The notes beneath the pieces were generated by a model. It did no database searches. It was given only the letters and a program-made list of their open reading frames with translations, and was not told where the DNA came from. Source: Dicyema japonicum (lineage: Eukaryota > Dicyemida > Rhombozoa > Dicyemidae). Taken from it: 64,000 bases of DNA. Positions within the stretch are counted from its first letter, which is position 1. Each line of letters begins with the position of its first letter. Positions 2,505-64,000 of the stretch are shown piece after piece. Both the position numbers and the translations under genes were made by a program. Location: positions 1,058,676 to 1,122,675 of the forward strand of contig RDEW01000002.1 of assembly GCA_011109175.1 (NCBI GenBank), in the 5' to 3' direction.

Positions 2505-3533
2505 ATGCCTAGTGTTGTTTGCGGTGATCCTTTCACTTATAATTATGCCATTGTGCGACGTCTTCCGTCCAGTATTCGCGACTATTTGAAAAACTCAAAA
2601 ATTCCTTTCGACTTTGAGGCGGCCGAGGCAGAATTGGAGAGCTTTGTGGATATGCTACGACTTTTGGGGGTCACTATAATGGAAATCCCCGCGGATGAAA
2701 TACATCCCTTCAGTTCCTTCATCGAGGACCACCTGGTCGTCATAAACAACACAGCTCTTATCTGCAACAGTGTTGACAATTCGAGGATCGGCGAGGTTTG
2801 TTTACTTTAATCTCCAGATCTCTGTTCTGAGGTCAATCTTAAGTCGAGAGTTCAACTGCATTGTGATTGACGTGGACTCCAGGGACGCACGTGTGCTGGG
2901 GGGAGATGTCCTCTTCACGGGTTACCACTTCTTATTACTCATAGGAAAGGAGATCTTTGTGGACTGTCAACAACACAAACCTAAATGGCGTCAACGAGGT
3001 CGCAAAGGCCTTCCCTGATTACCCGACCACGTGTTTTCAGCTCCCCAATGGAAACAAGTGTCTAAAGGACTACGTGATGATGGCTCAGAGGGACTCTCTG
3101 TTAGTGGGGGATACCAGCGAATCTGGGATTGTGTTGGAGGTATGGTTAATTAGTTTGCATATTGTCTAATCAATACTGGGCGATTAATCAATATATTGTG
3201 TTTAGAGAATAAAGGAACATGCGAGCTTTACGTACTCGATTCTGTTGATTCCTGAAGACGGGGCTGTGGACTCTGTGTTTGTCAATGACTACTTGATTCA
3301 CCTGCCGGAGGATCAGTATCCTCAGAGTTCAAGGGTTTGGGAGGTTTTATTGGTAGTTGTTTACGAGTCGATTGAGTCGTCACTATCAGGTTAGTTTGAG
3401 ACAACTTGGTAAAATTAATGGGAGACTTTCACGATTGTGTACATTAATTTACAAGTCGAGGATTCCTAGGACATTTCCCACTACTTTAACTAATTTTGAC
3501 ATTGATAATTTTATGTTTGTTATTAATAAATGA
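2505..3533 (+). CDS. DDAH1: Dimethylarginine dimethylaminohydrolase (DDAH)
   Basis: Hydrolyses asymmetric dimethylarginine to citrulline and dimethylamine, relieving inhibition of nitric-oxide synthase; cytosolic, pentein fold. Five exons. Introns are at 2796-2817 (22 nt), 2921-2944 (24), 3140-3205 (66) and 3335-3356 (22). Exon 1 gives the family N-terminus (YAIVRRLPSSI). Exon 2 holds VLGGDVLFTG, exon 4 LIHLPEDQYPQSS, and exon 5 the VSLRQLGKINGRL..LCTLI region, where the catalytic cysteine lies. The cysteine aligns one residue off the vertebrate TCCS motif. ATG 2505 is chosen over an upstream TTG. The spliced length is not a multiple of three: near 2957 the frame shifts, as if 2 nt were missing between IFV and the conserved NNTNLNG stretch. 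Either this is a consensus error or the gene is damaged. Confidence 0.88.
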
Positions 3534-3910
3534 TTATTTGATCATGTTTCCTTTAATCTCACAATCTGAGGTCACTCAGGTCTTTTATGTTTCTGCGCTT
3601 GAAGATAACCAGAACATCACCTGGCGTAGGACCCATCTTTTGGTGGTTGTCTACATGACGTACATTCTTGGTAAAAAACCAAGTGATACACATCAATGAA
3701 CTAATAATTAAAATTTATGGCTCAGACGGGGTTTGAACTCAGAATTGGCGTATTCGAGTTTTGAACAGAAAAGGACGAGAGGTTATGTCTATTTGATAAC
3801 TAACTAGTGTGGTATGTCACAGGCATTTTCTAAGTGTTTTCTGATGACACATTGAATAAATTATTATCAACCATCACGTATTGATTGACGTTTTGTTGAT
3901 AAGCACCATA
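3534..3910. other. Intergenic, no gene recognised
   Basis: A 67-codon frame at 3496-3699 overlaps the DDAH 3' end and has no family match. The minus strand at about 3722-3750 contains GAGTTCAAACCCC, which resembles a Pol III B box, but I found no matching A box or foldable tRNA. Confidence 0.4.
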
Positions 3911-3914
3911 TTAT

Positions 3915-8393: not shown

Positions 8394-9038
8394 TTACATC
8401 AAGTCATAATCATCCCTCTGACAAATAAATAAAACCAAAACCATATCATTATATTCAAGCATATTTCTCTTCACTGCTGATCGGTCACTCCATGTTATGA
8501 AATCCTCCAAACTACGAGTCACCAAGAATGCTGGATCAGTTACTACTTCGGGTCCCACTCTCACGTCTAATCATTATAATAACCCATAACGTCCTTGTTC
8601 CACATATGTGGTGGCTGTTCGAACATCCTCTGTCATAGAAGATCGCTTCATTACAACAGCCAAACGACGCCTACAGAAGGAACTGGCTGAGACCTTATCA
8701 CACAACTCCAAAGTGCTCTTGGCTGGGATAAGTCCCATCTGATATCTAGGACATGCTCATACATTTTTACAATTTTTCTAATAGAAGACTGGTAGACTGA
8801 GTTCTGAATGGGTCATTTGGAGAAAGTTGCTTTATTTGAGTGGCCACTTGACGCACGTGTCTTGATAGTTTGTTGTAACTAGAATTATTATGAATTGTTA
8901 CATTGTATAGTCCTCACGTCTAGTAAGGCCGTATTTTTTCATTATTCCCAATTCATGGCCCTTATTATCAGCCTCCCATGTCATAAAGTCGACTTTTTTG
9001 AGTAACTTTTTTTCGTGATATTTCAGTTTTCTAACCAT
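8394..9038 (-). CDS. IMP3: U3 snoRNP protein IMP3
   Basis: Component of the nucleolar U3 processome (MPP10-IMP3-IMP4), needed for 18S rRNA maturation; it helps pair U3 snoRNA with pre-rRNA. It starts [18 protein letters not shown] and is collinear with animal IMP3 to the C-terminus (RDDYDLM). The S4 RNA-binding domain is in the second half, with [20 protein letters not shown] and the signature ASSFCRRRL. Four introns: 8879-8901 (23 nt), 8746-8770 (25), 8567-8590 (24) and 8418-8441 (24). Splicing gives 549 nt, exactly 183 codons with stop (182 aa; human 184), so the gene looks intact. No single frame is open for more than about 60 codons, so ordinary ORF finding misses it. Confidence 0.97.
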
Positions 9039-12876: not shown

Positions 12877-13291
12877 ATGCCAGTAAAGTATTTCCTGCAC
12901 CCGAATGGAACTTCCTTCTACCAATGCAAAAAATGTAAAGTCCCACTTTCCAATAGAGAGGACATTCAGTCTCGAAGATTCACTGGAGGCACTGGCCAGG
13001 CATACCTATTTAAAAAGGTGGTGAATATATATACTGGGGAGGTGGGTCCTACAACCTGAATTTTAGATCAAACACCAAGTAATGTTGACAGGACCTCACT
13101 TGGTTGAGGATGTGTTCTGTCTGGGATGTAATACTAAGGTTGGGTGGAGGTATGAATATGCCTATGAGGAATCACAAATTTACAAAGAAGGATCGATAAT
13201 ATTAGAAAAAGCTTTGATTGAAAGTTGTGATGAACCTTTGGATGGGGGATTCACAGTCAGCCCAAATGGTGCTTCCAGCACAACATTTTGA
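12877..13291 (+). CDS. YPEL: Yippee-like zinc-binding protein
   Basis: A conserved eukaryotic zinc-binding fold (MIS18/cereblon/Yippee-like) linked in animals to the nucleus and centrosome/spindle; biochemical role unsettled. Exon 1 is 12877-13041, the intron 13042-13066 (25 nt), exon 2 13067-13291; the spliced ORF is 129 aa. It keeps both CxxC knuckles (FYQCKKCKVPL and DVFCLGCNTKVGW), the RRFTGGTGQAYLFKKVVNI block, and the WRYEYAYEESQIYKEGSIIL helix with Yippee spacing. The C-terminal tail after EKALIE is longer and unlike vertebrate YPELs. The ATG is the first after an AT-rich stretch. Intact. Confidence 0.95.
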
Positions 13292-14592: not shown

Positions 14593-16258
14593 CTAATCCG
14601 TATTCTTCTTAGCTTCTAAATAACTCCCAGGGACATATCCAGCCCTTCCATCCTTATTAACAACCTTCATGTAAATTAGACAAATACATAGCACCATGCA
14701 TTCGGATCAAAGTCTCCAGCAAAACTGACAGTTTCTCCAGGATTAACAGATAAATATTTATCCCCGTCATTCTAAAATCAGTTGAGTTGGTACCTCATAT
14801 TTATGCAAAACAATAGCCTCATTTAAGTTTGCAGAGGTAGTAGACTACATTAGAACAGACTAAATACCTCATCATCAGAATATAAGACTTGGTATAGGCT
14901 GGAATAGTCACTCTAAATGTGTAATTTATGCTTGTTTACTGAATTCTCCTTGGGACTTTCATTTATGGACTGATAGGTTGGGTCGAAATCATAGGGGTCG
15001 TCTTGGGGGATGCTTATTTGGGCAATCACTGAATCACAAATGTTGATTGTTTGCTAAATATTATGGACTTGTTACTTTGGCCTTTATTATCATTTCTGTC
15101 TTCTCAATGGTAGTCTCTCTCCCAGCCTGAAGGTGGTGTAATAGATCCTCGGCCTCCTGTTTGCTTTTACTCCAATATTCGATGATATCCTTTGTTGGTT
15201 TATTCGTGACTATGTGCATGTTGGGTATTCGTGGTAAGTTTATTTTAAGACTCGTAGAGAATGGGGGATAATTGTCGATCATTATTTGAGCAAAGTCATC
15301 CACCTTTGTTACCAAAAATGACAACATTTGTTAGTTGGTCTTTCAGTGACTTGAGCTTCTGGACAGAGCCGTCGTAGTTCTTCATTAAGGAATCAACAAA
15401 TCCAATGACCTTTTCGACGACAATGTCATCATTCATTATAAAGTCCTGTAAGTGATTATTCCAACATACATTAATAAGATTGTACAACTCCTCAGTGTAC
15501 AACTCAATCTGCCGAATCAAGGCTGTGTGATGCGATATGTACTCCAGTTTGTGCTTGTTTAGAATTTCCTGGGAGTTCTTTGACCTTTCACTGAGCTGGA
15601 AATATTTTAGTTACTTTACCCTTTTCAACTGTTTGCTACGTTTTGATATGGTCATGGACTCACTGAGTATGCGATCCCTACAATATAAAGACTCTGAACA
15701 ACCTCCCAATCTTCGTCTGCAAAGCCAAGTTTTTCGCCTCGTAGTCTTCGAGTTGTTTATAAATCGACGTAACGAATTTAATGTTGGTCTCCACATCCTT
15801 CTGTCTCTTTGCTAACATGGCGAGGACCTAAATTGACAAATAAGACTACATCTCTTCTATTATCAACGATTGTCTTTGTGATCTCTTTAAATTGGCCTGT
15901 ATTGATCTCATATAGATTGAGGGAGTCCTGGAACTGATTTTGGAATGACTTTAGTGTGGTCTTGACTTGTGTTTCAAGATATCTTGGATTATTACCTTTC
16001 CCACCTTTTGTCGTTGTCATTGATCTTTTTAGAGAATGACTTTGTAATACTGAGAATTTCCTTGTTGAATTTGTTGAATACTTTGTTGTATTTGGTGAGA
16101 TATTTTCTGCAATATAAATATGGAAGTAATAATGTCCATAATTAACTATTGTGTACTCACTTTATGTAATTTGTTATGGCTATTGACTTCAATCCTTCTG
16201 AAGTTAGGACTTGGATTTGCTTTGAAAACATTTTTAATATTTCTGATTTTTTGGTCAT
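14593..16258 (-). CDS. Coiled-coil (BAR-like) protein with C-terminal SH3 domain
   Basis: Thirteen exons. Twelve GT-AG introns measure, 5' to 3', 54, 22, 22, 22, 24, 24, 22, 22, 27, 23, 22 and 23 nt. The spliced ORF is exactly 453 codons with stop (452 aa), with no frame break. Residues from about 1 to 300 are almost entirely helical and rich in K, E, Q and L (for example YKQLEDYEAKNLALQTKIGR), consistent with a BAR/F-BAR-type dimeric coiled coil. An acidic linker follows (IPQDDPYDFDPTYQS). The last 65 residues are an SH3 domain: AIVLHKYE, VNPGETVSFAGDF, NAWCYV and GRAGYVPGSYLE. Such proteins link curved membranes to actin regulators; that role is inferred from architecture. I could not choose between nostrin/CIP4-like, endophilin-like and other families. 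Confidence 0.75.
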
Positions 16259-19230: not shown

Positions 19231-19357
19231 ATCTCATGAGGCTAAGAAGATATCACCGTTAATTAATTATTAATTATTTGTTGATTAAAATATAATTATA
19301 ATTAAATATTAATTTTCTAACTATAGTTGTAGTATGATGTCGTTAATCACACCTGAG

Positions 19358-20375
19358 ATGGCTTCAAAAACTCTGTAATTAATATAATAAATAAAAGCTA
19401 CTTTGGAAATCTTTCTCCCCACGTGAATGAAAATCTATTAATATCACTCGTTGAACAGTTTGGCGTCAAATGTCTCTCATGCAAAATGATTCGTGAGGTA
19501 TCAAACAGAGTGCTCAAATCAGACCATCAACGATCCGTACTGCTTCATTGAGTTTTCCTCATGCGAGGAGGCCCGTCTTGTCCTCTCCCAACTCAACCAA
19601 GTCACCATTTTTGGAAAAGTCGTGATTTTTACAAAACAAACAGAAATTGAAGGTCAACTGGGCTGCTGTTCCCAAAGCTGACTCATCCACTGAGTACTTC
19701 AGCATCTTTGTGGGAGATCTTAGCCCTGAAATTGACTCTGCAGGTTTGTTAAATGCTTTTCGTCATTTTGGAGAGATTTCGTACTTATTAATAGTTTATA
19801 GTTCAGAGACTGCAAAGTCATCACTGATCCTCACACTTTTGTGTCCAAGGGATTTGGGTTCGTCTCATTTCTCCACGAAGAGGACGCGGCGAGGGCTATT
19901 TCTCAGATGAACTGTCAATGGATTGGGGGACGACCTATAAGGACCAACTGGGCTGCCAGGAAGGTGGGGATTGGTTCCACTAGTAATGACTTTGTTTAAT
20001 GTAGCTCGGTCCTATGCTGAGATATCAGACCAGACGACCTCTACGAATACAACTGTTTATGTTGGGGGCGTACATCCTGGGTTGATGACTGAGGACCAAG
20101 TGAGGACAATCTTCACCGTGTTTGGACACATTTTGACAGTTCGAGTCTTCCAAGATAAGGGATATGCATTTGTGCAGTATAAAACCAAGGAGAGTGCTGT
20201 GAGGGCAATCCAAGCCGGTGGCAGTCACTCTATTGCTGGATGTCCCCTCAAATGTTCATGGGGGAAGGAGAACCCATCAAATTTTCAAGTTCCATACAAC
20301 TTTTACGGTGTTGGATATGAACAACCACAGAGTATGCAGTATCCCCCACATGGAAATTACCCTCATTATTATTAA
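19358..20375 (+). CDS. TIA1: TIA1/TIAR-like RNA-binding protein
   Basis: Binds U-rich RNA, helps U1 snRNP recognise weak 5' splice sites, and nucleates stress granules; nuclear and cytoplasmic. Six exons. Introns: 19375-19397 (23 nt), 19498-19522 (25), 19619-19643 (25), 19781-19806 (26) and 19974-20004 (31). Spliced length is 888 nt (295 aa), in frame. Three RRMs in the TIA order: RRM1 with LYFGNLSPHV (the RNP2 codon is split by intron 1) and NDPYCFIEF; RRM2 with FSIFVGDLSPEID and SKGFGFVSF; RRM3 with TVYVGGVHPGL and KGYAFVQY. KVNWAAVP and IRTNWAARK follow RRM1 and RRM2 as in TIA1. The C-terminal prion-like tail is much shorter than in vertebrates, a few Q/Y/P residues ending PHYY. Its role in choosing very short introns here is an open question. 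Confidence 0.96.
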
Positions 20376-26589: not shown

Positions 26590-27917
26590 ATGGTGGCTGT
26601 TAAAACTGACAAAAAGTCAATGAGTAAAACATTCTAATAATCTTAAGAAAATACTAGTAAATCTGAGAACTCAAAGAAAAATAAAAATATCCCCATAATG
26701 CCTGAGCCAGATTTGGACGAGAGTGACTCTGGTTCTGAGGAATCAATAGAAGTACCAATTCCCTCATGACATCGCAAAAGACGAAAAAACCAGATTTAGG
26801 GGAGTCAGCCAACAAAAGTAATATTAATAGTCATGTGTAGAACAAAAAGTGGAGGAGTCAGGTTTACTTACAAGTGGTTATTTTGATAGATGGCGAAAAT
26901 GAGGAGGAGGATTCCGGTTTGCTGTGTAATTATGCTAGATAATAATATGGAAGAGGAAACTGAGGACTCAGAAGAAGGAGAGGAGTCTGATAGTAATGTG
27001 GCGAAGAATGAGGAGTCTGAGGAGGTAGAGGATTCGGGTTTGTTAGTGAATATATCATAGATGTAAGTGAGGCTGTGGATATATCTGATAATGATAATGG
27101 TAGGATTACTTCTTTATTGCAGACTCTCCTGTCTCTGTGATGCTTGGGAACTTAGTTCCAGAACGAGTGATGAGGACATCAAGGATCTGCTCAAATCTGC
27201 CTCTGTTAAATACTCTAAACTGCAGAGGAAGGAAAGGTGTTAAGTTTGTTCATTTAAGGACTGCCACGTTGACTGTCCTAGCTGGGTCTCTCCAGAAAGT
27301 AATTGATTTGATCGGAACTTCATTAAGCGACAGAAAGTTGTCAGTCCTAGTCCCAGAAGGAGGACCTAAGGAGACATCTCCCCAAAATATGTCAAAGAAT
27401 TCTACTAGTGAAGAAAATTGCTGCGTGTTTGTAAAGAACCTTGACTATAAAACCACAAATGAGAGTCTTCAGGAAGCATTTGAAGGATCAGTGTCTGCTA
27501 GAGTCATTTTAGAAAGGGACACTGGGAGATCAAAGGGGTTGTGGGTTATTTGATGTCTTAGATTTGGATATGTTGACTTTGAGACAACAGAAGAGGCAAA
27601 ATATGCTATAGAGACCGTTAAAAGTGTGGATGGGAGGAATGTCTTTACTGACTTTGCCTCTGCACGTGGTTGTCCTCGGTGTGCTCATTGTAGGTTCTGG
27701 TGGTCCCAGGTCTAATGACAACAGGGGAGGATTTAGAGGTGGCCGTGGTGGTTTCAGAGGAGACCCTCGTGGTGATCGAGGAGGATTTAGAGGTGGTCGT
27801 GGTGGAAGAGGAGATTTTCGTGGTGGACGAGGAAGAGGATTTGGTGACTTCCGAGGGAGGGGAGATAGTTTTAGAGGTGGTCGAGGACAACCTAAACATT
27901 TTACCTTTGAAGAGTAA
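26590..27917 (+). CDS. Nucleolin-like protein (acidic, RRM, RGG)
   Basis: At least nine mini-introns: 26624-26647, 26752-26780, 26818-26840, 26862-26889, 26917-26938, 27038-27060, 27100-27122, 27538-27561 and 27669-27693 (22-29 nt). The product starts with a lysine-rich segment (MVAVKTDKKSM). Long acidic tracts follow (NEEEDSDNNMEEETEDSEEG), then an RRM whose RNP2 is CCVFVKNLDY and whose RNP1 (GFGYVDF) is rebuilt across the 27538-27561 intron. The end is an RGG/FRGG domain of about 70 residues. This is the nucleolin/Nsr1 architecture, acting in rRNA transcription and processing; only one RRM is clear. In 27123-27340 two readings are possible (one long open frame, or further introns), so that part is unsettled. 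Confidence 0.8.
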
Positions 27918-27919
27918 AG

Positions 27920-33252: not shown

Positions 33253-33465
33253 GGTCATCCACCAAGGAAACTCGTTAGGATTTCCTTGCATTGGCTATCG
33301 ACGGCGTCTTATGTGATAAGAATCTTTCATTTGGTGGTACTGACGATTATTGATTGCTCATCCCCAACAGTGTGCATGTTGGTAAGTGATCCTCTTACGA
33401 GCGCCCAACTATGTATAAATTTATGTTTCCTAGTCAAAAGAATAAATGTATTTAATAATAAAAAA

Positions 33466-35004
33466 TCAAGAATTAATAACTTTTAAGTTATGATAATTAT
33501 CAATTAGAAAGACTACAAAGTTGTTAATGTAAAACAGAGAGGCCAGTCCATTAACAGGACGGAATAAATTACATCCCATTACAATCCCCAGATTCCCCGA
33601 TGTCATCAAGTTAACAGTGCTGTGTCTCTGAACCTGTCACTATTTAACATAAAACTACCAAATCAAGCAAATCCAACAAAACAAGCAGCAAATTACGGTT
33701 TATCTCGGGAAGTTCACCCAAAATTTCAAAACAAGCCTGTAATTTGTCAGTTTTGTCTAATCCCACTAATAACACCAACAACCATGAAAGTCGACGATAA
33801 GTTGGTGAAACGAATCAGGGAACAAAGCTGGTTCCAAACTCCCAAAGAAACGTTTCAGTACAACACAAGCGAGATCAACGTCCCCAATCTCTTTAAAATC
33901 GACAGGAATGCCTAAATATGTAAATATAGTCCACCGTGGTTTACATTATGACAGACATCATCAAGCAGAATTTTATTAGTACATCGTCTGAAGACTCCCA
34001 CCTGGTCAAGTCCTGGGGGTAACAAATTCAAACAACCGTATTTACTAATGTAGTCAATACACTGAGTGACGATGGGAGGACACGTGCATTGGTGGTTCTC
34101 ATAAATGCTAGGATTACATACAAATGAGACAATTCAAGCGACACACCGAACTGATTCGTTTTCATGGGAGTTTCGATGACTAAATTATCCCTGTTTCGAA
34201 TGCTATCGTCGAATCTGTATGGTAAAGGACAGAGGACTCACATTTTGACATCATAGGGGATTTTGAGTCTGTCAATGATGAGATATGGTCCCATCTCAGA
34301 AATGCTGTTGATTCTCCGTATTTTCTTGGCAAACTTGGAACTACGTCTATAAATTAGACCAACTTGACGATTTTCTGAAAGGAGGCAATGATAACGTTGA
34401 CTAATTGGGACGGGTGGACTATGAATAGGGCTTTGATGTTCTTTTTGTATCTTGGGAGTAAATAAATCCCCACTTTCTGTCAAGTTGTCTGTAGGCAGAG
34501 AAGAGAAATTTGAGGGAAGGAAACCTCGTCATTTTCATCCCATAGTGAAAGTACACAAGCACATAATCCGAGGTCACATATTTGTCGAGAGTAAATAATA
34601 GATAACTAACAAATCATCAGTCAAATACTCCAGAACACGCTGGTGGGCGACCTCACTTGTGGGAGGTACTCTGCAGGCTGAAAATGTTATAATTTTGTCC
34701 CCATACAAGTCATCCCCTAAAAGTAAGAATGTAGGGCTGCCTGCAACTTCTACGATTCCATATTTGGCAACATCGGCATATTCCCCAATTTCATTATTAA
34801 AGTGAAAATCCTTTATAGTAAGTCCATTATACATTGACTGGAGGGAGTTGAGTCTCAAAGTCGTCGTTGACTTCTTGTATTTCCGAGACTTTGAGGGACG
34901 AATCTATTTCCTTAGTAGTAAGGTCGCACTCAATCTCATCATATTCGAATTCATTATCGTCAATTATGTCTTATAATAGTATAATTAATACCAGGCATAT
35001 CCAT
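33466..35004 (-). CDS. ARHGAP1: ARHGAP1-like RhoGAP with Sec14 (BCH) domain
   Basis: Stimulates GTP hydrolysis on Rho/Cdc42; the BCH/CRAL-TRIO part tethers to prenylated GTPases or membranes. Twelve or more exons with introns of 22-27 nt. The acidic N-terminus (MDMPDIIDDNEFEYDE) is followed by the BCH domain: KIITFSACRVPPTSEVAHQR, YVTSDYVLVYFHYG, YKKNIKALFIVHPSQLVN and KFAKKIRRINSISEM. Then a proline-poor link and RhoGAP with the arginine-finger loop GVFRRC, GIPVDFKEIGDVDL, LKRFFGSLEPALFP, ELPEINRNLL and NLMTSGNLGIVMGCNLFRP. The second intron after the BCH start (34717-34740) is GC-AG. One junction (34591-34610) has no AG acceptor: removing 20 nt restores frame but ends in AC. Everything else splices in frame. 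Confidence 0.93.
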
Positions 35005-39328: not shown

Positions 39329-40083
39329 TTAAATATGTTTATTAGTTTTATGAAAATGTAATAATTCATTGACCTCTGCTTGTAAATTATTTCTTATCCA
39401 AATTAAATTAGCCTTTCTTTCCTCAAGAATGTCAATCTCATTCGCATATTTTGATATTTCATTATTTTTCCGTTCTCTGCAATTTCGTGCTGCCATCTAC
39501 TCAATTATTATTACTGACTACTCGATTTCTCCCACGTCTTCGGATTTCATTCAAGTACTTTAATTGAAAGTCCGTGAATGAATTATTTTTTGACAAATTT
39601 TTTAAAATCATTTTTATCGTAATTAATGACAGCCTCATAGTCAAAGTTGGCATCACGTGTGAAGGTTGACTCAGCAAAGTGGTCCCTCCATTCGTAATCG
39701 TCATAATAGTCAATGTTATTGTATTGATACTCCATGGGCTGTGAATATGTCATGTTACCCCAATTTCTGTCTCTTATGTCCGGTGGATTAAGAGTATTCA
39801 GCTAAAATAAGACCTTAATCTACGTAGTAGTCTTCATTATAGCTGTAATCCTTGGGCATCATAATCTCCCCTGAAATACAAACTCAAAATGTACCAGTCT
39901 CGTGATTGACTGTGTACTGAAGGTCATTCAGTGTTTCATAGTCCATCTAACACATGATTGAACAAACTACAAATGAATGTTCGGGAATAAAGGAGTTTTG
40001 CATGCTATGACTCACTCCAAAGTCCATTCCATCGTCAAAGAAGTGATTATTCTAATATCTTAAAAGTGATCAGACCTCACCAT
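39329..40083 (-). CDS. NFE2L: CNC-type bZIP transcription factor (NRF/SKN-1-like)
   Basis: Oxidative/xenobiotic stress regulators of the NRF family bind antioxidant response elements, usually with small Maf partners. Six exons, introns 22-29 nt. The bZIP is unmistakably CNC: FTDFQLKYLNEIRRRGRNR, intron 39497-39521, then MAARNCRERKNNEI with the invariant asparagine and arginine, and a short leucine zipper. The acidic N-terminal region contains HETGEIMM: an ETGE motif like the high-affinity KEAP1 site of NRF2, with the glycine codon split by intron 39871-39894. The frame needs one base removed from a six-T run (+ strand 39586-39591), giving 209 aa, far shorter than vertebrate NRF2. The start ATG at 40083 is followed at once by an intron, so the first exon is just ATG; an upstream exon is possible. 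Confidence 0.85.
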
Positions 40084-40145
40084 TTTTTTATTTGCGGTTA
40101 GTCAATTCTATTATAACCCAATCAACCACGGCACTATTATCTGCC
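40084..40145. promoter_or_regulatory. Candidate bidirectional promoter
   Basis: Only 62 bp separate the head-to-head starts of the bZIP gene (-) and the small ORF (+). Inferred from spacing alone; no TATA or binding site identified. Confidence 0.35.
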
Positions 40146-40346
40146 ATGGAGAAGTGGTTTAGTAAAATTACGAGTTTTAATATTGTTAGTCATCCATTCA
40201 ACTGGGTTGACGGATTTCCCTTGTCTTCGGAAGTTAAAGAATTGTTATCTCAGTCCATGTGGGTGCCACCGCAACAAGTTAACCGCATAGACTATTCTAA
40301 GCCTAATTATGTAATAAATAAAATCTGGGGTATCATTAAGAAGTAG
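40146..40346 (+). CDS. Hypothetical 66-aa protein
   Basis: Starts MEKWFSKITSFNIVSHPFNW and ends VINKIWGIIKK. Basic, tryptophan-rich (4 W), no predicted membrane span and no cysteine. The frame stays open upstream to 40092 but without ATG. The composition resembles small mitochondrial subunits, but I could not assign a family. Intronless as read. Its position against a divergently transcribed gene supports its being real. Confidence 0.5.
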   Translation: MEKWFSKITSFNIVSHPFNWVDGFPLSSEVKELLSQSMWVPPQQVNRIDYSKPNYVINKIWGIIKK

Positions 40347-45679: not shown

Positions 45680-46680
45680 AAAGAATTACTATTTAATAAT
45701 TTAAATAAATTATTATAAAAGTAAATTATAAAATAAACAAATTTATCCTTGTATGGTTGGTCTTTGGAACTATGTGGTTATTTAATCTGATGGGGAAAAG
45801 TTGTTGGCTTTTTTGATGTTTTGAGAGTCAGATAACACTAACATTTCACTGTGGATTTAAATAAGAATGTTTAAAAGGTGGAATTGCCAGTTCATGGCCT
45901 ACTAAACACCGCTAATTTTTTGATAAATTATGTTTTGTTACATTCAAGTTAGTTTTTAAATCTGCTATCACTCGTTGTTATCTGTGACTTAGTGAATCCT
46001 CTAATCTGTTGAATTGGTGTCATCTTAAGTCAGAAGAACAAGCTATTCTCAACAGATTGGTCAACGAGATATATAGGGGCTGGATTTATGTTAAGATTCG
46101 ACTCAGTGAATTCCGAATTTTTAAAGGATATGTTGATTAGGGACTATATATTTTCTTTGGTTTATCCGGGGTTGATAAATTAAATTTATAACACTTTATT
46201 AATAGACTATTGAGAGATATCATAATGTGGGTATGTATTTCTCATAAGGTTAAAGGAGTGGTGGGTTTCATGTATTTCTCATAAGGTTAAAGGAGTGGTG
46301 GGTTTGTTGGAGGAGGACAGCATTGTAAAATAGCAAAACCATACATTCAGTGAGATTGGAAAAATAGAATCGTGAGTCTAACGAAACTATAGTAGTTGAC
46401 GCTTAGCACCTAACTATTTTGGGCAATCCATGTAACTGACTATTTTAATGAAACAAGGACAATCACATGATTGTTTCCATTTCCTTAATGCGTTTAATGT
46501 ACATGCCAAAGTAATTGTTATGGATTGTTACCAAAAAGCCTGTTAAGAATGTAATATTAGTATTAATCCCCTCTTCAAGATCAATCTAATAAAATAATAT
46601 ATTGTACTTCATTATAAACAACCGAAGGCGAAAATTTGTATTTTCTGGCTAATATTAGTTCAGACTCTAAAATTACTACT
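45680..46680. other. Intergenic, mostly unassigned
   Basis: Contains a degraded LINE/SINE tail in + orientation at about 46140-46185 (TTTGGTTTATCCGGGGTTGATAAATT) and the tandem duplication at 46233-46306. No gene read. Confidence 0.45.
46233..46306. repeat. 37-bp tandem duplication
   Basis: Two adjacent, essentially identical 37-bp units, 46233-46269 and 46270-46306, beginning ATGTATTTCTCATAAGG. Confidence 0.9.
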
Positions 46681-49598
46681 GATAATACTCCTCTTCATAT
46701 CCTCACTTGTTGTTAGATTCCGTCTACTGCGAATGGAAACGAGTCCTAAGATGACCAAACTGTCAACCCTTTTTGATAGATTGCATTCTTTTCATGGAAC
46801 ATAATTATAGTTCAAGTCTTTGGATATTTCAATAAGCTTTTTGTCGTCGAATATGACGACAATGTTCTCCAAATAGCACTCACAACGTCGAACATTGATT
46901 TTCTAGACTGACGTCGAATGAATAACCTCACTGTACAGCTTTTTAATAAGACTGCTGAGATTTTTAGACTTTTTGAACTTGTCAATCTCATATTTAGCCG
47001 CCTTCTCGAGAGCCTGGGTCATTTCCAGGTCAAATGCAGTCTAGAATACAAAAATTGACAAACTTTACGATCTCTGGATTGTTCGGTTACAGTCCGAATG
47101 TATTTAGAAAGAATCCTCCATTTATTAAAGTTGACCAAACCATCGACGACAGAGCATTATTAAAGTTGATGTTATAAAGGTCTTTTTGGATTATGGGGAA
47201 GAAGGGAATCTAAATTAAAGGAGTGCCCAACCGCTTGGTGGTCCTAGAAACTTGTACTAACTCAGTTCGATAAATAGCCATATTTCTTAGAGGACTCATC
47301 AACTGCGTGAGTCTGTTATATATTTTAATAGAATTGGAGGGAATCATATTCCATATTTTGGGAGTATTGGCTATGGCTGGGTGATTCATTCCAGACACAA
47401 ATGTAAAGGCAGCATTATAATTATGTTTCCTTTCAAGCAAATCTGAATACAACCAAGCATATACGAGATATTATGATGAATTTGTTCAATATTTTAGCTC
47501 TCTGCTCAATCTCTCTGTTACAGCAAATTTCAGTGACCATCCACATCATTTGTTTATTACTGAACTAAATAATTATGACTATAACTAACATTGATGTATT
47601 CACGTAAATATTCACATTCTATTGGGTAATTTGACGATATGTTGGCCATGTAATGGTAGTTGCTTATATTTAACACGTAATTCATGTCTTTGCTGTGAAT
47701 ACACTCCGCAAGCAATATCGTTATTTGGCTTAGAAAATCATTAGAATCACTTTCCATGTCCACAATCTTCAGTTCCCCCATAAAATCCTCATTCTGGGCA
47801 ATGTAATAGCTAATCTTAGGCCTCACTCATACCGAGCGTTTAACGGGAGAATTGAGGCTAATCCTTTGATAGACAACGAAAGCTTATGGGCAGTGAATTC
47901 ACCATCCATGATTACTTCATAGAACGAGTACTCACTAAAACTGAAATTCACTAAGATCACACTGCAAGCCCCTTTAGATTGAATTCGTAAAGTGCGGCCA
48001 AAATGACATCCCCCACAGCCATATCCGACGTGATTGGGAGTATTCGACTTCCAAGTTGTACATTATAGACTTTAATCAAGTCCACATTCCAATTTGGGTT
48101 GTTTTCCAGTAATTTCAAACACGTGTAGTATTTTTCAATTTTATAGTTGTTTTGGGTTTTCCGTAAAGATAAATATCTGTCTTTATTTTCATCCACGTGT
48201 TTTTTCCTAAAACATAAATATATACAACTTTAGTTTGAATTTTGACGACTTCCTCTTCTTTTTACTGCTAACAAATACCATTTCTGACTGAAGGTGGGTG
48301 GTTGTCCCCATTAGCTCTACGTTTTAGTTTACTCGTCACCTTCAAAGTCAGGTTCCACGTGGATAACATAGTCATTAGCCATAGTTTCTAGTATTAAATT
48401 CACGTCATCGTGGGAAAAGTCGGTTACTGACATTCCATTGATTCCCTTTAACTGAAAATAACGGTGATAACAACCACGTCATCTGGTCGTAAGCCTTCTA
48501 CTTGTTCAGTCGTGTCCACTGAGAATTTCCCATTAAATTTAATGACAATTCCAAATTTGATATTAATTTTTCTCTCCCATTTTTTGGATTTGCAGATTTC
48601 ATACAACTCCCATATCTGTGCTTTTATATAACTAAAGTGCTAAACCTTAGGCTTAATCAATTGCACGAATTCCACGAGAAACTCCCACAACTTAATATCA
48701 AAGACAAAGTCAGAGTGATTGTGGGTAATCCAGAAGAATACAATTTCAATTGACTAATAAATACTCATGAATACTTTATCAATCAACTCGGGGTCAGTAA
48801 ACCACTCCCTGAGTTTACTCAAGACAACAGTTGGATCCACAAAAGTCCGGTAGCAAAGGAAAAAATCATATAAATAGTCGTTATCCATCCCAAGTAACTC
48901 ATTTATCAGGACATCGGTCGTCCCCTGAGATTACAGCACATTTACCTTCAAAATAGAGAAACTCAGTTGGTCATTAACCTTCCTGGACTCCTTCACACAT
49001 ATTAAATCCCCAGAATCGTTGTATAATTTTACTACATTTTGTGCAAACTAATATAACCACATAATAGTACTTCTTTGAGAACTCGCACATACTCTTCCTG
49101 CATAATTATGATGAACTGTACTTCTGGTGTTTTAGTAATCATTGTCCCCCTGTGATGCTGTTTTTCCAATGTTGGGGTCACTCCGAAGCTGTTTGCTTTA
49201 ATACACATTAACCTATCCCCCACTCCCAGTTCCACTGTTGAACCATCTCTCTTCTTCACCAAAACAGTTCCATTCATTATAACACTCCAAGAGTCCATCT
49301 CTTCCCCATCTTCCATAACCACCGTATCAATGTTATCCACTTCCGCGAACATCATCAACTCACAAAACTTTAATTTCGTGACATCAGTAAAATTTGAGAA
49401 TGCCTTTATGTTCTTAATAATAATACATTTATATTCTGAATAAATTCAAACAGAATTTCCACACTTTTTTCAGTACGTAGATGAGGGTCCTCTTCTAATA
49501 TTTCATATATTAAATCATTATGTAAGTTCTCTTAATAAATACAATATTACGATTGATGATATTTTGGTATCTATCACATCTAATTCTAATTTATTCAT
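46681..49598 (-). CDS. RAPGEF2: RAPGEF2/6-like guanine nucleotide exchange factor (PDZ-GEF)
   Basis: Activates Rap GTPases at junctions and the membrane. The complete PDZ-GEF domain order is readable in only 2.9 kb. A cyclic-nucleotide-binding-like domain (49060-49350) has VVMEDGEEMDSWSVIMNGTV and ANSFGVTPTLEKQHHRG. The REM domain (about 48660-48925) has GTTDVLINELLGM and LCYRTFVDPTVV. The PDZ domain (about 48340-48640) has EGLRPDDVVV, GINGMSVTDFSHDDVN. RA (about 47830-48190) is followed by RasGEF (about 46960-47780): QRAKILNKFIIIS, ERKHNYNAAFTFVSGMNHPA, SPLRNMAIYRTEL, IPFFPIIQKDL and VDGLVNFNKW. The tail has SLIKKLYSE. Introns are 21-25 nt. Two joins (near 47120 and 47935) need single-base changes. 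The exact 3' end is not settled. Confidence 0.92.
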
Positions 49599-54599: not shown

Positions 54600-56050
54600 C
54601 TCATTCCAGCGAAGTCCAATAGTGTTATGAAGGACTTGCCGTGTCAAATGGCTGCAGCTTGAAAAAGACGATAGATATGCCAACCACCAGCGCCGATCTT
54701 AGACCGACACCCCCAAATCCAGAGGGAAGCTTACATTGTTTCCAACCAAGTTCGTCGAAGCGGACGTTAATTAGTGACTCAACAGTTTGCTTGAGAGATT
54801 TGTCTATTGAAAGTAGACTGTCGTATTGTTCGTAGCAGGGTGAACATCGAGTGGATGTAAAAGCTTAGGTAGTCCAATGTTGTTTCTCATCAGGAAGAAG
54901 GATGTGTGAGAGTCAAGACATGACAATCTTTTCGCAAGGCGTGTTAATTCTTCATTTTTGGAAAGTAGATGGTTATTGAGTTCTTCTTCGCTGAGTGGCA
55001 TCCGAGGAAATATAATTTATCAACTGCACGGTCGGGATCCAGGAAGCAGTTCGTAAAAAACTCATTGATAGAGAGGAAAGTCGGTGTATGGATATGAGAC
55101 ATTTATTAGCTCTGATTTGTTAACATTGATGTCCAAGTCCAAGTGTTTAAAGCGCGGCTAACGCTTTACGTAATGAATTGTATGTTTCCTTGAACGATCC
55201 TCCAATTGTGGCATCATCGAGGTACTAGAGATTTAGCTGAGCATCAATTGATCTCAACAACATCATCAATGGTCAGGGCAAATAAGAGAAATCCGAGCGG
55301 ATCTCCTTGTTGAACCCCCGTTTTTGATTTAATAATTTCATTTTCAAAAACCTGAGACGTATCGTACCCATTGACAAGAGGGAAAAGCTTTGGAGCCCCT
55401 TTTGAACCTCAGCCTCACATCCGTTCTGGATACTAACACACATATTTGTTTAGGAAAGAACTCCTCTCCAAGTTGTCGGCTCATCAGGGTCGATTGCTAC
55501 CTTTGCTGGAAGTCTTCTAAAATAGTTCCCCGACCGCAATGGGGCGGATTTTTTTTTGACGAGTTGACGCCGTCATCAGTGAATACTCACTGCGGAACTG
55601 GATTTGTCTTAGAAAGGACACTCACACAAGAAAAAGAAAAAAAAAAAAAAAAGAAGTGTGAAGATCATTCCTTGGTTCTACGATAGTTAAAATTAACTGT
55701 TCTTTACTTAAATAAAGTGTGTGTCCTGCCTATGCGCGGAGCTATAAAATACTATGGCTTCTCGTGAAAAGGCTTTAAAAAAAATGGGGCGGATTCCTCC
55801 ATTGGATTTTTTGAAAGCAAGTAGCCTTGCGAAAAAAAGCAATGCTCTGGCATATTCGCCGTTAACCATTTTTCTGATTAGGTTAGTAATTGATTTGACA
55901 ATACAGCGTCCAGCTTCCGAGGTGTAAGTAGACGTAGGGTCCTTAATATGGCCAGGAGTTTGTTCCACTCGATGTTGAAACATCTGGTTTCCATGCGCCT
56001 CTGGAATTCTTAAATCATCTAGGGAATCGGATTTCTGCATGAACATGAGA
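54600..56050 (-). pseudogene. Family B LINE copy
   Basis: The minus strand from 56046: YARALLFFARLLAFKKSNGG then GIRPI (RT fingers), palm remnants with a broken GDPLGF-like block around 55290, and LSKNEELTRLAKRLSCLDSH (thumb) at 54804-55001. The 3' endonuclease part is absent. An A-rich run at 55635-55650. Confidence 0.65.
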
Positions 56051-56576: not shown

Positions 56577-58735
56577 TTATTTATTTAATAACCCCGGGAA
56601 CACCGAGAAAGAAAGACAAAAGAGTCAGACAGTTAGGTGATCCCAGTCCTCGCAATCACTTGTGCCATTCGACGTCTGTGATCCTCCATCGTCCCCACTA
56701 CTTTCCGGAAGAGCCTTCTCTCGGTCTTGCAGAGGAATCCGATCGGGGAGGGGAATTTCTTATCCAATCAGTTTTCTCTTGCCATGGGAAGGATCAGGCG
56801 AAGCGGATTTCCATCTTCTTCACAGAGGCGAAGAAATCCGGAGCCACTACTACGGATCTTAGTTTCCATGAGTAGTGGGTCGACTGTTGATCCATTACGT
56901 GGGGAAAGCATACTGATTGTTTTCCGGTATATCGAGTTGATTCGTTGGACCAAAGACTCCGATAGCCCGAATCTTCATGCAACGGAGGCATACTCAATGG
57001 CAGGCGCGATTGTTTGTTGGTAGAGTGTAGAAACGGAAAAGTCCATGTTCCTCGTGGTCCTCCGAACAAGGGCGCGTATAACGTTAACTTTCTGGAGGCC
57101 CCTGGTGATCATGTCTGTTGCGTGGGAGTTGAATTTGAGAAGGCTGTCGTACTTGACTCCAAGGACAGTGGGGGACCTTGTCACTGGAATCCTAGTGGGA
57201 CCAATGAAAAGACTCGGTTCATCCTTGGAACGACGGTCCGACGTGAATGTGGAACAGATAGACTTGGTTGCAGAAATCGTTAAGTCGATTGCCACAATCC
57301 AATCGTGGAGAATGTTCAATTTTGTCTGAGTTTTAAGGGATGCGACTTGCGTCGAGCGGTTCCGTATTGCAATGACTACGTCGTCTGCGTAGGATAATAC
57401 AGGGAATCTTCGTCTCCATCATTAGGTAGGTCGTGTAGGAAAAGGTTGAATAGAATTGGTGAAAGTGGAGACCCCTGGGGTACCCCGTTCGGTAGTAATC
57501 GTGATCTAGATCTGAGATCACCACTGACTACTCTTCCACGTCTTCCAGACAAAAAGTTGGCCAGCCATAATTTCACATTCGGACGAATATTAGTAGAAAA
57601 AATTTTTCCAACCAAGATTTTCCTCGAAACAGTGTCAAAGGCTTTGTTGATGTCAATAGAAACCAAGATTGTGCGTTTGTGAGGCGGAGGATGGGTGTTA
57701 AAACCGTCGGCAATGAACTGCGATAAAGTTGCCAAGTATGTAGCGGTGGACCTACCGCGGAGGAAACCATGTTGAAATATAGGACGCGGAAGATACGGAA
57801 TAATGACTGATAATACAAGTTTCTCCATAATTTTTGACAGTGTGCTGGTAACGGAAATAGGCCTGTAGGATGCAGGTTCTGTCTCTGGTTTCCCAGCCTT
57901 CAATATCGGTCTGATGATAGAATTCTTCCAAATCTTAGGAATAATATTATAGTTAATGGACAGATTGTATATATGCGTGAGGTAGCCAATTGCGTAGTGG
58001 CTTAGGTGTTTTAGGTGAATAGAAGATACTTTGTCAGGCCCGCACGCCCGTGAGCTCTTTAATCTGGTGATCACATCCAAGACTTGGTCATCTGTGAATA
58101 GTTCGTGATAAGGTTCCTTCTTCGGTTTATGGGACGCACCTTAATTCGGTTTATGGGCACGCACCTTAATGTCCAGGTGTTTCGAGAATGATTTGAAGCT
58201 AATTCCAGCGTAATGTTTCATAAGGGTGTTAGGATGTAGGTGGCATAAGTGTTCAGGAGAAGACTTTCCGGTTCCGTCTGCATCATCTAGCTCTGACTTG
58301 ACTTGTTTAAGAGTTTTCCAGAAATGTCGGGATGTACTTTTCCTGTCGAGGTGGTTAACTAGATGCTGCCATCTCTTGTCCTTGTGTTCTTTTATGCTCT
58401 GACAGATCCTTTTATTCAGTTGTCTGAGGGCTGTCAAAGACTTGATGTCCAACAGATGGCATCTCTTCAGCCGGTCTCTTTGTTTTATAAGACTTATTGT
58501 ATAAGAGCTGAGGGTAGGAATAAACTTCTTGTATGACGATATAGGAATAAAAATATGGTCAGCTTTCTGAATGGCAGCGCTGATAATTTCTGCGGCCTCG
58601 TCAATAGAGCGTATTGGGGAGGATAATCTCCCGGCCAAGAATTTATCCACAAGGTTACTGAAACCAGACCAGTCAACCTTCGTATAATCCTTGAATCTTT
58701 TTGATTCCGCCAGCCATGAGAATTCAAAGATTTAT
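56577..58735 (-). pseudogene. Family C LINE, most complete copy
   Basis: From 58735 (minus): a pre-RT region with IQKADHIFIPISSYKKFIP and RLNKRICQSIKEHKDKRW-like text; then a 234-codon RT frame (57376-58080) with RACGPDKVSSIHLKHLS, IIRPILKAGKPETEPASYRP, FQHGFLRGRSTATYLATLSQ, VSIDINKAFDTVSRKIL and LPNGVPQGSPLSPILFNLF; the YADD region is frameshifted at about 57395. The thumb (56975-57319) has VLGVKYDSLLKFNSHATDM. The 3' UTR ends in the hairpin tail (56585-56645; arms GGGAACACC and GGTGATCCC, one mismatch). No upstream endonuclease was found here. Confidence 0.82.
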
Positions 58736-61200: not shown

Positions 61201-61214
61201 GGGGAGTACCAAGA

Positions 61215-61879: not shown

Positions 61880-62830
61880 CCAAACTAATCTAAAAGTTAT
61901 GGATTCAAAGGCAGAATAACAAGATCGATATAACTCAAAGTTTATAGGTTCAGTGTTATTTGATAAAATATTCAACATTTTTATTGCTTTTTTTAAATTT
62001 GTAACAGCATGATTTGTTCCCCAAGCAACATAAGTACAACTCATTATAGGTTCAATGTATTGTTAGTAAAGAACATCTAATCCACTGAGACCTCGGAGGT
62101 TCATAAAAGAGCCCTAAAAGTAAAGCTTCTTCGCGCAAGCTGCTATCACACTTTCGACATGAGGGGAAAAGTTAAATGCACGACGAAGGTTACACCCAAG
62201 ATTTTCTGGGTCTTTTTCTGAGGGATTTTATTTCCATAGAGAGTGATGTCTATAATACACACTCTTAGTTGTGAACAAAGTCAAAACTTACTTTCCTGTA
62301 CTTGCCTGTAACTGATTTTTGTCAAGTTATAAACTAAGATTGTCCAAACAATCCTATAATCTACATGCAGCATTTTTTCGATGCGCCCAATGTCGTCTGC
62401 GTAGGAAAGCAGGATTTGGTTATCTCCATTTACCAGCGGTAGATCGTTCATTATTAAATAGGACATGAAATAGAAAAGATGTTGTGAAATCCCATCCGGT
62501 AATTGCCTTGACATAGAACATCGGTTTCCATGATGCCTCTACCCCAACCTTCACTCAAAAAATTCCCCAACCATAGTTTCAAATTTGAATCATTATTCAG
62601 GGAATTGATTTTTTGTGTAATAATTTTTCGCGAAACAGAATCAAAAGCCTCTGGATATCAATCGAGCAGACAATTGACTTTCTTGTTTGGGCTTTTTACA
62701 TATGTCATCATAAATTTCTTTGTAGAAGTTAAACACGATGTAGTCGATAGTACTTTCTTAAAAACATTCTGAAATGTGAGGGGAATGAAGGGTGAATCCG
62801 TCACAGAATCAAATTTCAAGAATTCTCAAT
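61880..62830 (-). pseudogene. Family C LINE copy, decayed
   Basis: The minus strand contains LLSYADDIGRIEKMLHV (YADD motif C) at about 62390-62440, preceded by SRQLPDGISQHLFYF, a decayed PNGVPQGSPLSP-LF, and FDSVSRKI-type text at about 62620-62650. Confidence 0.65.
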
Positions 62831-62971
62831 TGGACACATAAAAGAAATATACCTCTTGGAGCCCTGGTTTTCTTTCGGTTTCTCCGATTATTATTAATTT
62901 ATTTTATTTATTAATAAATTTAAAATAATTGGTTAATAATTCAAAATTATAAATTCTCGTCATCCTTGTTA

Positions 62972-64000
62972 ATGATTATATTAATAATAATTTCCCTCTC
63001 CATTTCAAAGCGAATTTTCTCAATTTGAAGTTGACGGTACTCCATATAGTCATTTATAAGATGTCAATTCACAAGTGGAAATCACAGGAACAACAGGAAA
63101 AGTGGAAAGCACTATTTATGAAAATGAGTCTGAGACTGTTCCCGAACTAGAGGAAAATGTAAATATACAATTAAGTGATAGTCCATAACCATAGAGGAGG
63201 ACAGTGACTATAATATAAATATGATAAAGTCAACGAAAGTAATATTATGAATTATTAGATACCACTCAATTGGGTTGATTATTATGTGGAAATTGGATTC
63301 ATTCTCTTCATGATCCTCTATTTGATTACATATATTAATGGACGAGGTAACAACAGGGACATTGCCAAGACCATCCTGGATGACTTTAGACCCATTTGTC
63401 AAAATAACTTTCTCCACGTGGGTCAGATTAGTTGTTTTACTATTTAGGGGAGAGTCTCAATGAGGAATGGACTCAGGAGAGCGAGAATGTATATTTACTG
63501 TGGTGTAGTGGACATGACTTTATAAATAAGTGTGTTGTCTACCTAGATTTACTTAAACGACACGATTTACTGTCCACAATAAAGCAGACTATTCGGCCTA
63601 CCAGGGAAGATTACATTGTATGTCCTCAGTTTATTAGAGACAATCCTTGGGAGTCTCACTGAAATGGATAAAATGGTGTTTTCTATATCAAGGAAAGACA
63701 AAATTACAGAAATGTCCAAGAAATATCCTGATTTAGTATTTTCCTGTTTTATTTAGGCTTTTTTCTGCAGTCTTAAAAATCACGACTTTATTCCCAACGA
63801 ATTTGCATGTCTCACTGAAAACAGCGGACTGATCCCCCTTATATTCGATCAAAATGTCATTTTTTAGTTAATCACAGATTTTGGCCTTGTTTAAGAGACT
63901 AAGTGAGTACGTGGTCTCTGTTCACGTTTCGAATCATTCTGTTGGGTATTCTAGTGATCTTAGGTTGTTTTGTCTGTTTATTAGATCGGGGACTAAGACT
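62972..64000 (+). CDS. CCDC47: CCDC47 (calumin), partial at window end
   Basis: An ER membrane protein of the PAT/multipass translocon complex, with an ER luminal acidic domain and a cytosolic ribosome-binding helix. A hydrophobic start MIILIIISLSIS suggests the signal peptide, though its join to the next exon is not resolved. The luminal part is acidic (YENESETVPELEENVNIQLSD). One TM segment: YYVEIGFILFMILYLITYI. The cytosolic domain has ENVYLLWCSGHDFINK, DLLKRHDLLSTIKQTIRP, LTEMDKMVFSISRKDKI and LFKRLSEYVVSVHVSNHS. Introns 63239-63258 (20 nt), 63422-63447 (26), 63618-63637 (20), 63736-63756 (21) and 63856-63877 (22). The 63618 junction is one base out of frame. The coiled-coil C-terminus lies beyond 64000. 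Confidence 0.9.

Follow-up and report, generated by a model that had tools for sequence, protein, structure and literature searches.

Ultra-short introns in gene after gene of a probable dicyemid genome, with a weak putative branch-point signal

Introduction

In animals, an intron is expected to need tens of nucleotides to hold a 5′ splice site, a branch point, a pyrimidine tract and a 3′ splice site. The 64,000-nt stretch of DNA considered here (the window) was described in an earlier note as carrying ultra-short spliceosomal introns throughout. An animal with introns of 22–25 nt that retains U2AF2 and SF1 makes it possible to ask how much spacing the spliceosome really requires. There is a practical side as well: a gene caller that sets its minimum intron at around 30 nt can be expected to overlook most of the genes in this genome. 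The genome measures 64.7 Mb and the window has a GC content of 38%, while 65–67.5 Mb and 36.7% are given for Dicyema japonicum (PMC6736024).

The reading favoured here, which is held to be very probable on the sequence evidence, is that these introns are of the ordinary U2 type, removed by the spliceosome, and have been reduced almost to a minimum length of about 22 nt. The genome is most likely that of a dicyemid, a parasite of cephalopods.

Intron lengths placed by protein homology

Prp8, which lies beyond the 64-kb window (C87:1216001–1226000), was analysed by spliced protein alignment, with GT/GC-AG introns of 10–300 nt permitted at one flat cost. The alignment has 36 intron rows, 35 of which are 20–26 nt long (mean 23.2, s.d. 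1.19); the last row, 11 nt long, marks a frame break and is no intron. Read-through is impossible for 34 of the 35 introns, and the alignment score drops from 10,182 to 8,441 once introns shorter than 30 nt are disallowed. GT-AG ends were assumed by the programs everywhere except in a free-boundary test on six Prp8 segments, in which any end letters were available at nearly equal cost, GT/GC-AG being favoured by 0.1 unit. Even so, 24 of 28 introns have GT-AG ends; 27 are 22–26 nt long, and the remaining one is 17 nt.

The homology set consists of Prp8, IMP3, U2AF2, TIA1 and part of SF1; those within the window are IMP3 and TIA1. Across these five genes, 53 of the 54 kept introns are shorter than 30 nt (mean 23.3 nt), the exception being one of 68 nt. 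The short ones comprise one intron of 20 nt, 13 of 22 nt, 17 of 23 nt, 13 of 24 nt, seven of 25 nt and two of 26 nt. Several rows were discarded before arriving at 54: that of 11 nt in Prp8, one of 10 nt in TIA1, two in SF1 (49 and 24 nt), and two of 201 nt each in the N-terminal part of U2AF2, which is poorly conserved.

Ab initio prediction and controls

Genes were also predicted ab initio over 244 kb, with a flat prior on intron length between 14 and 80 nt and the reversed sequence as control. Six settings yielded 11–32 genes, against 0–2 in the control. The most productive of these gave 32 genes with 195 introns (control: one gene with eight introns), and its length distribution peaks at 22 nt (24 introns) and 23 nt (34 introns). 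Once the parameters had been re-estimated and a minimum score of 20 imposed, the finder predicted 37 genes with 372 introns, 227 of them 17–32 nt long, and the control was empty. A first version of the gene finder recovered Prp8 in pieces only and a second gave two models in the window; both were replaced by the stringent settings. Overall, 142 of 730 predicted introns fall outside 18–28 nt, and some of these are surely prediction errors.

The introns might be artefacts, produced by restoring reading frames over assembly indels or by permissive gene finding. Frame breaks do occur, namely one of 1 nt in Prp8 near codon 1190 and one, noted by eye, in the DDAH-like gene described below. Loose runs can also go astray: one, since discarded, degenerated into calling over 5,000 false introns of all lengths, and a looser re-estimation gave 17 control genes against 79 real ones in its sixth EM round. 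Against this stand the GT-AG ends that Prp8 introns retain when other ends are nearly as cheap, the tight clustering of their lengths, and the nearly empty reversed controls under stringent settings; an artefact is thus very improbable. The evidence supports GT-AG introns of ultra-short length in one gene after another, and the claim that they occur throughout holds.

Intron-bearing genes of the window

Apart from homology-placed introns, the gene models in the window stem from the looser round with its 79 real and 17 control genes. Ten intron-bearing genes with about 80 introns were recognised, some boundaries being uncertain; the earlier count of about 15 genes was higher.

IMP3 (8394..9038, minus strand) was placed by spliced alignment to a mollusc and an annelid homologue and by Pfam. 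Both homologues give the introns 8879–8901 (23 nt), 8746–8770 (25 nt), 8567–8590 (24 nt) and 8418–8441 (24 nt), and the resulting coding sequence of 549 nt agrees exactly with the length first proposed. Among 120 matches listed of 3,451, the spliced protein has 60–68% identity at 96–100% query cover; the best named ones are from molluscs, annelids, brachiopods and hemichordates (64–68%), and a dicyemid name is absent from these 120.

The TIA1-like gene (19337..20375, plus strand; start picked by eye) encodes RRMs. Its first four introns, 19375–19397 (23 nt), 19498–19522 (25 nt), 19619–19643 (25 nt) and 19781–19806 (26 nt), come from alignment, and the fifth, 19983–20004 (22 nt), from ab initio prediction only. 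The 888 nt previously given for its spliced length probably counts the in-frame stretch 19744–19773 (30 nt) as an intron; the alignment to human TIA1 treats this stretch as coding and arrives at 918 nt.

The remaining models are ab initio predictions, all but the first with Pfam matches. A gene on the plus strand (2505..3400), which by eye we take to be DDAH-like, has no Pfam match; its first intron is predicted at 2796–2817 (22 nt), and by eye a 24-nt intron lies between GGDVLFTG and KEIFV, followed by a frame break of 1–2 nt. A Yippee-like gene (12877..13291, plus strand; end set by eye) has a predicted intron at 13042–13066 (25 nt) and a doubtful second one at 13256–13278. For the SH3-domain gene (14593..16258, minus strand), twelve introns are predicted, as many as proposed earlier, with lengths of 54, 22, 22, 25, 24, 24, 22, 22, 27, 23, 22 and 23 nt; the present model has a spliced length of 1,356 nt, against the 1,359 nt proposed, and includes the 54-nt intron. 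The nucleolin-like gene with RRM and GAR regions (26590..27916, plus strand; end set by eye) has about ten predicted introns, mostly of 22–25 nt and with uncertain boundaries.

Eleven introns of 22–27 nt are predicted in the CRAL-TRIO and RhoGAP gene (33421..35004, minus strand), together with a doubtful twelfth of 51 nt. The bZIP gene (39329..40147, minus strand) has seven, of 51, 24, 24, 24, 22, 73 and 25 nt. Of the 24 predicted in the RasGEF gene (46463..49598, minus strand), 20 are 21–26 nt long, and the remainder measure 14, 20, 30 and 32 nt. The CCDC47 gene (63061..64000, plus strand) continues beyond the end of the window, within which eight introns of 20–26 nt are predicted.

As a separate observation, the copies of a triplicated sorting-nexin-like gene look too similar to tell intron from exon divergence.

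A weak branch-point signal

The 5′ end of the introns consists of GT followed by A/T-rich letters, with no strong G at +5. No clear polypyrimidine tract is seen in the introns; pyrimidines make up 60% of the letters at positions −6 to −4, against 54% in decoys.

Statistically, the introns appear to carry a weak UNAY branch-point signal (TNAY in the DNA), the putative branch A lying mostly 7–8 nt from the intron end. The test set comprised 489 introns, in which positions −12 to −4 had been scored by symmetric base composition alone, and decoys that agree with them in length and in their numbers of A and of T (T in steps of two); 7,581 draws reuse 4,410 distinct decoys. A is found at −8 in 209 of 489 introns against 2,138 of 7,581 draws (p = 3.5e-11), and at −7 again in 209, against 2,255 draws (p = 4.6e-9). 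TNAY with its A at −7 occurs in 98 introns against 521 draws (p = 7e-20), and with its A at −8 in 72 (p = 1.7e-11). The −7 enrichment persists when each distinct decoy is used once (98/489 vs 254/4,410, p = 2.4e-23) and, again with distinct decoys, when the Prp8 locus is removed (84/440, p = 2.5e-19). In an unsupervised search of a first set of 203 introns, whose 3′ matrix extended to −6, the motif T-N-A-Y emerged with a log-likelihood of 63, against 11–16 in five shuffles that had fewer restarts and iterations.

No single position has the motif in most introns; when its A may lie at any place between −12 and −6, 304 of 489 introns have it, but so do 2,885 of 7,581 draws. It is more enriched at −10 (55/489, p = 9e-6) than at −9 (47/489, p = 0.02), so the branch position is not sharply fixed. 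The signal is scant in the AT-saturated Prp8 introns: T at −9 with A at −7 occurs in 12 of 35, where a rough estimate from composition would give about nine. The position anticipated for the branch-point A, between −8 and −12, came close, the signal being strongest at −7 and −8.

Counted from the 5′ end, the A of TNAY is commonest at nucleotide 16 in introns of 22–24 nt. The excess over decoys there is 30 percentage points at 22 nt, 18 at 23 nt and 16 at 24 nt, and for 23–24-nt introns alone the counts are 38 of 160 against 73 of 1,130 decoys (p = 2.2e-10). Signals are weak in introns of 19–21 nt, and those of 25–28 nt have no clear single TNAY position. In cross-validation, counting from the 3′ end gains 87 and counting from the 5′ end 62.5; fixed 5′ spacing is therefore the weaker half, and is disfavoured as the sole rule.

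The commonest length, put at 22 nt, would then add up from two spacings: some 15 nt between the 5′ site and the branch A, and a further 7 nt or so up to the 3′ end. For this commonest class, the earlier remark that almost no room is left between the sites is apt. A UNAY signal at a near-fixed place in dicyemid introns was not found in print, and a 2008 survey states that they have no branch-point signature (PMC2483917). If confirmed by lariat reads, the signal would correct this published absence, and the question of the minimum intron would become measurable, as 15 + 7.

Splicing machinery

Genes for U1, U2 and U6 snRNA and for U2AF2, SF1 and Prp8 were found in the genome, including the U2, SF1 and U2AF set that had been proposed as a check. 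U6 has the canonical ACAGAGA core. U1 gives 11 matches, none at the Rfam cut-off (best 69.0 vs 69.5 bits), and its 5′ end reads ACTTACCTG in both copies read. U2AF2 has the ULM tryptophan and a third RRM-like domain; no single match reaches the NCBIfam cut-off because the search runs exon by exon.

This inventory bears on whether the segments might be removed from DNA by programmed elimination, like the internal eliminated sequences of ciliates, and not from RNA. Ciliate eliminated sequences are similar in size to the present segments, and dicyemids reportedly have extrachromosomal circular DNA (Noto 2003). Against elimination stand the GT-AG ends, the UNAY signal at branch-point distance and the presence of splicing genes; it is accordingly a very remote prospect. 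Dicyema introns have been identified by comparing cDNA with genomic DNA (PMC2222250), a comparison that alone cannot separate RNA splicing from DNA elimination. On the favoured reading, U2-type splicing, the segments would be spliced from RNA.

U2 snRNA itself has an extra A between the strands that pair with U6 and with the branch site (GAUCAAAGUGUAGUA). It is present in all eight copies read, out of 25 matches, and aligns as an insert relative to the Rfam U2 consensus, which would fit an adaptation to short spacing. The same A is present in Drosophila and C. elegans U2, so that it would be an inherited trait; adaptation is improbable and was set aside. The stretch with the extra A was not found in the literature, where the form without it is in print, and had no match among viral contigs; in three eukaryotic contigs, the 27-nt U2 matches are too short to include the extra A and do not decide.

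The minor spliceosome also appears to be represented, by one U12 match (85.4 bits, cut-off 53) and one U6atac match with a narrow margin (37 bits, cut-off 33). Consensus searches for U12-type introns gave no excess for GT-AG ends (2 matches vs 10 for the backwards pattern) and, for AT-AC ends, five matches, three of them overlapping, against 13; a regular-expression search returned four unconvincing matches. One candidate U12-type intron of 28 nt lies at C116:185112–185139.

A more far-reaching proposal combines three elements: a physical floor, with the branch A at nucleotide 16 and the 3′ end 7 nt further on, making 22 nt the shortest intron handled well; AT-richness and length replacing much of the splice-site sequence; and a surviving minor spliceosome with miniaturised introns, such as the 28-nt candidate. 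This combination is offered tentatively, and is rather less likely to hold than to fail.

Comparison with other short-intron systems

Dicyemids (Dicyema acuticephalum, D. japonicum and Dicyema sp.) resemble the present case in their introns of about 20–30 nt, intron-rich genes and weak 5′ sites. Sixteen dicyemid introns average 26.2 nt (PMC2222250), 41 dicyemid introns have a mean of 24.93 and a median of 25 according to a table row seen without its headings (PMC2483917), and a median of 27 bp is given elsewhere (PMC6543705); in a fourth report the D. japonicum mean is 38.2 (Lu 2019, PMC6736024). Such lengths are thus known from dicyemids, as had been supposed, and are not in themselves new. 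The present introns are slightly shorter (mean 23.3), and a branch-point signal was found in them. ATP synthase beta is apparently intronless here, with a single match (family positions 2–462 of 462) in an open frame of 481 aa free of stops; its D. acuticephalum counterpart also lacks introns (PMC2222250). An alternative is that the genome comes from another reduced animal lineage, which shortened its introns on its own. In its favour are the best named IMP3 matches among the 120 listed, none of them dicyemid; against it, genome size, GC, intron length and the apparent lack of introns in ATP synthase beta are all as in dicyemids, and in the orthonectid I. linei the median intron is 57 bp (PMC6543705). 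This alternative is improbable.

Paramecium has GT-AG introns with a median of 24–25 nt, and those of Stentor are 15 nt (PMC12862383); introns shorter than the present ones are thus already on record. For the ciliates considered in that paper, no U11/U12 snRNP is reported, whereas U12 and U6atac genes were found here. Trichomonas vaginalis has introns down to 23 nt with the branch site at −8 to −12 (PMC12316389); it is intron-poor with conserved motifs, in contrast to the many introns and weak signals seen here. In human short introns where SPF45/RBM17 replaces U2AF, splicing is independent of U2AF (PMC8363638). By analogy, the hold of U2AF on a polypyrimidine tract may be dispensable in the present introns, although the human model intron, at 56 nt, is longer (PMC8363638). 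The nucleomorph of Bigelowiella natans has many introns of 18–21 bp, as recounted in PMC2222250, and its intron signals are weak too (PMC2483917); it is the reduced nucleus of an endosymbiont, whereas the present case is an animal.

Intron lengths

Introns were placed by a scripted protein-to-DNA spliced alignment in which lengths of 10–300 nt were permitted at a single flat cost. The Prp8 locus, on the contig of the window but outside it (C87:1216001-1226000), was located with Pfam PF08083; the query was human PRPF8. Of the 36 intron rows, one (11 nt) reflects a frame break of a single base. The remaining 35 introns are 20–26 nt long (mean 23.2, sd 1.19), with 95% AT against 67% in exons, and in-frame read-through is possible for only one of them. 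After splicing, residues 1–477 of the predicted protein find human Prp8 in PDB (E = 4.5e-262). Restricting introns to 30–300 nt lowers the alignment score from 10,182 to 8,441, and restricting them to 10–19 nt lowers it to 7,810. When any two end letters were permitted at nearly equal price in six Prp8 segments, GT-AG was recovered in 24 of 28 introns and a length of 22–26 nt in 27; the length is therefore not a product of the assumed splice sites.

For IMP3, which lies in the window, alignment to the Pecten and Owenia homologues gives introns of 23, 25, 24 and 24 nt. Its product of 182 residues is 60–68% identical to animal IMP3 over 96–100% of its length among the 120 matches listed. Across Prp8, IMP3, U2AF2, TIA1 and part of SF1, 53 of the 54 introns kept are shorter than 30 nt, the exception being a 68-nt intron in U2AF2; only one is shorter than 22 nt. 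Together with the free-boundary test, this upholds the ultra-short GT-AG introns claimed in an earlier note on this DNA. The spliced length of 888 nt given there for TIA1 agrees with the model only after removal of a 30-nt in-frame stretch, which by homology is a coding part of the second RRM.

Over 41 genes, intron AT tracks third-position AT (Spearman 0.56). Prp8 has the highest third-position AT among the genes listed, and its introns, at 95% AT, compare with 63–84% in the 39 other genes listed of the 41. Three close tandem gene copies at C87:1160300-1175400, sorting nexins by eye, have short introns at matching places. The ATP synthase beta gene is apparently intronless; with this feature, and with its size, GC content and intron length, the genome fits a dicyemid best.

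To see how general such introns are, 244 kb were searched at six settings with a gene finder whose training set was Prp8 and whose intron-length prior was flat over 14–80 nt; reversed sequence served as control. It returned 11–32 genes, against 0–2 in the control; the setting with the largest yield produced 32 genes with 195 introns, whose lengths peak at 22 and 23 nt. After re-estimation of the parameters, a minimum score of 20 yielded 37 genes with 372 introns, 227 of which are 17–32 nt long, and no gene in the control. Parameter re-estimation drifted, the sixth round giving 79 genes against 17 in the control. A small exon flanked by two short introns is probably concealed in many of the predicted introns of 40–80 nt. 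A branch-point run on 343 kb scored positions −12 to −4 by a symmetric A = T composition alone, under a length prior that was flat for 18–28 nt and lower outside. It yielded 59 genes with 730 introns, of which 588 have 18–28 nt (control: 1 gene, 8 introns).

Branch-point signal and proposed intron geometry

The signal was measured in 489 predicted introns of 18–28 nt from 41 genes; a gene qualified if it had four or more such introns and these were at least 70% of all its introns. As decoys, GT-AG segments from outside the predicted genes were used, with matching length, A count and (in steps of two) T count. The frequency of A is raised at −8 and −7 (43% at each, 28–30% in decoys) and nowhere else between −14 and −4. 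TNAY, the classic branch-point core, occurs with its A at −7 in 98 of 489 introns, compared with 521 of 7,581 decoy draws; with each distinct decoy used once (254/4,410) the result is unchanged, and with the Prp8 locus left out the count is 84 of 440. The motif is also enriched with A at −8 (72/489) and −10 (55/489), and weakly at −9 (47/489). Position +5 of the 5′ site is a G in 24% of these 489 introns and, in Prp8, in 1 of 35.

Among introns of 22, 23 and 24 nt, the A of the motif lies most often at nucleotide 16; in the latter two classes, TNAY has its A there in 38 of 160 introns and 73 of 1,130 decoys. In cross-validation, numbering from the 3′ end did better than numbering from the 5′ end (87 and 62.5). 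The proposed geometry would place the branch A about 15 nt downstream of the 5′ site, with the 3′ end roughly 7 nt further on. We infer that these two distances sum to the commonest predicted intron length, 22 nt (112 introns; 42 have 21 nt).

Splicing machinery

The splicing machinery looks conventional. U2 snRNA has 25 matches in the genome, 22 above the cut-off, and in each of the eight copies read an additional A precedes the strand that pairs with the branch site. U6 has 10 matches, nine above the cut-off, with a canonical core in the aligned copies. None of 11 U1 matches reaches the Rfam cut-off; both U1 genes read have ACTTACCTG at their 5′ ends. No single U2AF2 exon match reaches the NCBIfam cut-off. 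Aligned to the human protein, U2AF2 keeps the ULM tryptophan and a third RRM-like domain, with uncertain boundaries for its N-terminal RS-like part. The genome also encodes SF1 (80.5 bits against a cut-off of 29.3). At its locus (L051, contig C45, near 1290627) it reads ...KKKRTRFGG, with Phe at the place of tryptophan 22, the U2AF-binding residue of human SF1.

Genes for U12 snRNA (G000:C68:163471-163599) and, by a narrow margin, U6atac snRNA (C34:237761-237858) were found on two other contigs. This reduced animal may have kept a minor spliceosome. Consensus patterns for U12-type introns matched no more often than their backwards control; one 28-nt match carries both U12 signals and is a candidate.

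Genes and repeats in the window

The genome carrying the window (C87:1058676-1122675) comprises 64.67 Mb in 191 contigs. The window has only eight ORFs of at least 150 aa, and by-eye comparison identified none as an intron-bearing gene; the ORF at 27530-28108 (minus) overlaps a nucleolin-like gene on the opposite strand. Nine of ten gene products tested have Pfam matches, namely IMP3 (S4 domains), Yippee (Yippee), the SH3 gene (SH3), TIA1 (RRMs), an RRM gene (RRM), a CRAL-TRIO and RhoGAP product (both domains), bZIP (bZIP), RasGEF (RasGEF) and CCDC47 (CCDC47); the DDAH-like product has none. Rfam at curated thresholds gave no matches across the window, and a tRNA scan detected none there. An RPS28-like gene, recognised by eye only, lies at 21334-21524 (minus) and is apparently intronless.

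Among seven window ORFs compared with Pfam, only a LINE-like reverse transcriptase matched (57376-58080, minus; RVT_1, E = 1.8e-21). Several degenerate RT-like stretches are seen by eye near 18.7, 22–24, 29–31, 41–44, 51–52 and 61–62 kb. A 207-aa ORF at 31749-32372 (minus), in the region 31189-33247, is MULE-type transposase-like by eye but has no Pfam match; inverted repeats, 127 and 110 nt long (96 and 95%), lie on either side of it. A repeated tRNA-like SINE, also identified by eye, reads TGGCATAGTGG ... GGTTCGAATC with an A-rich tail. Copies lie at about 55560-55800, at positions 1-250 of another stretch of the genome (L013) and near C87:1160300, and the SINE also adjoins a U2 snRNA gene. 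No Rfam family is assigned at those places.

Relation to known dicyemid introns

Ogino 2010 is cited in the papers on short dicyemid introns. In open PubMed Central full text, no paper reporting a dicyemid branch-point signal was found, and PMC2483917 was the only paper found for dicyemids together with U12-type introns; it states that dicyemids have no branch-point signature and names Paramecium and the B. natans nucleomorph alongside. Short dicyemid introns are already published (PMC2222250, PMC6543705, PMC2483917 and PMC6736024). The headline is therefore known; what looks new is the geometry of the branch point, together with the snRNA genes of the minor spliceosome.
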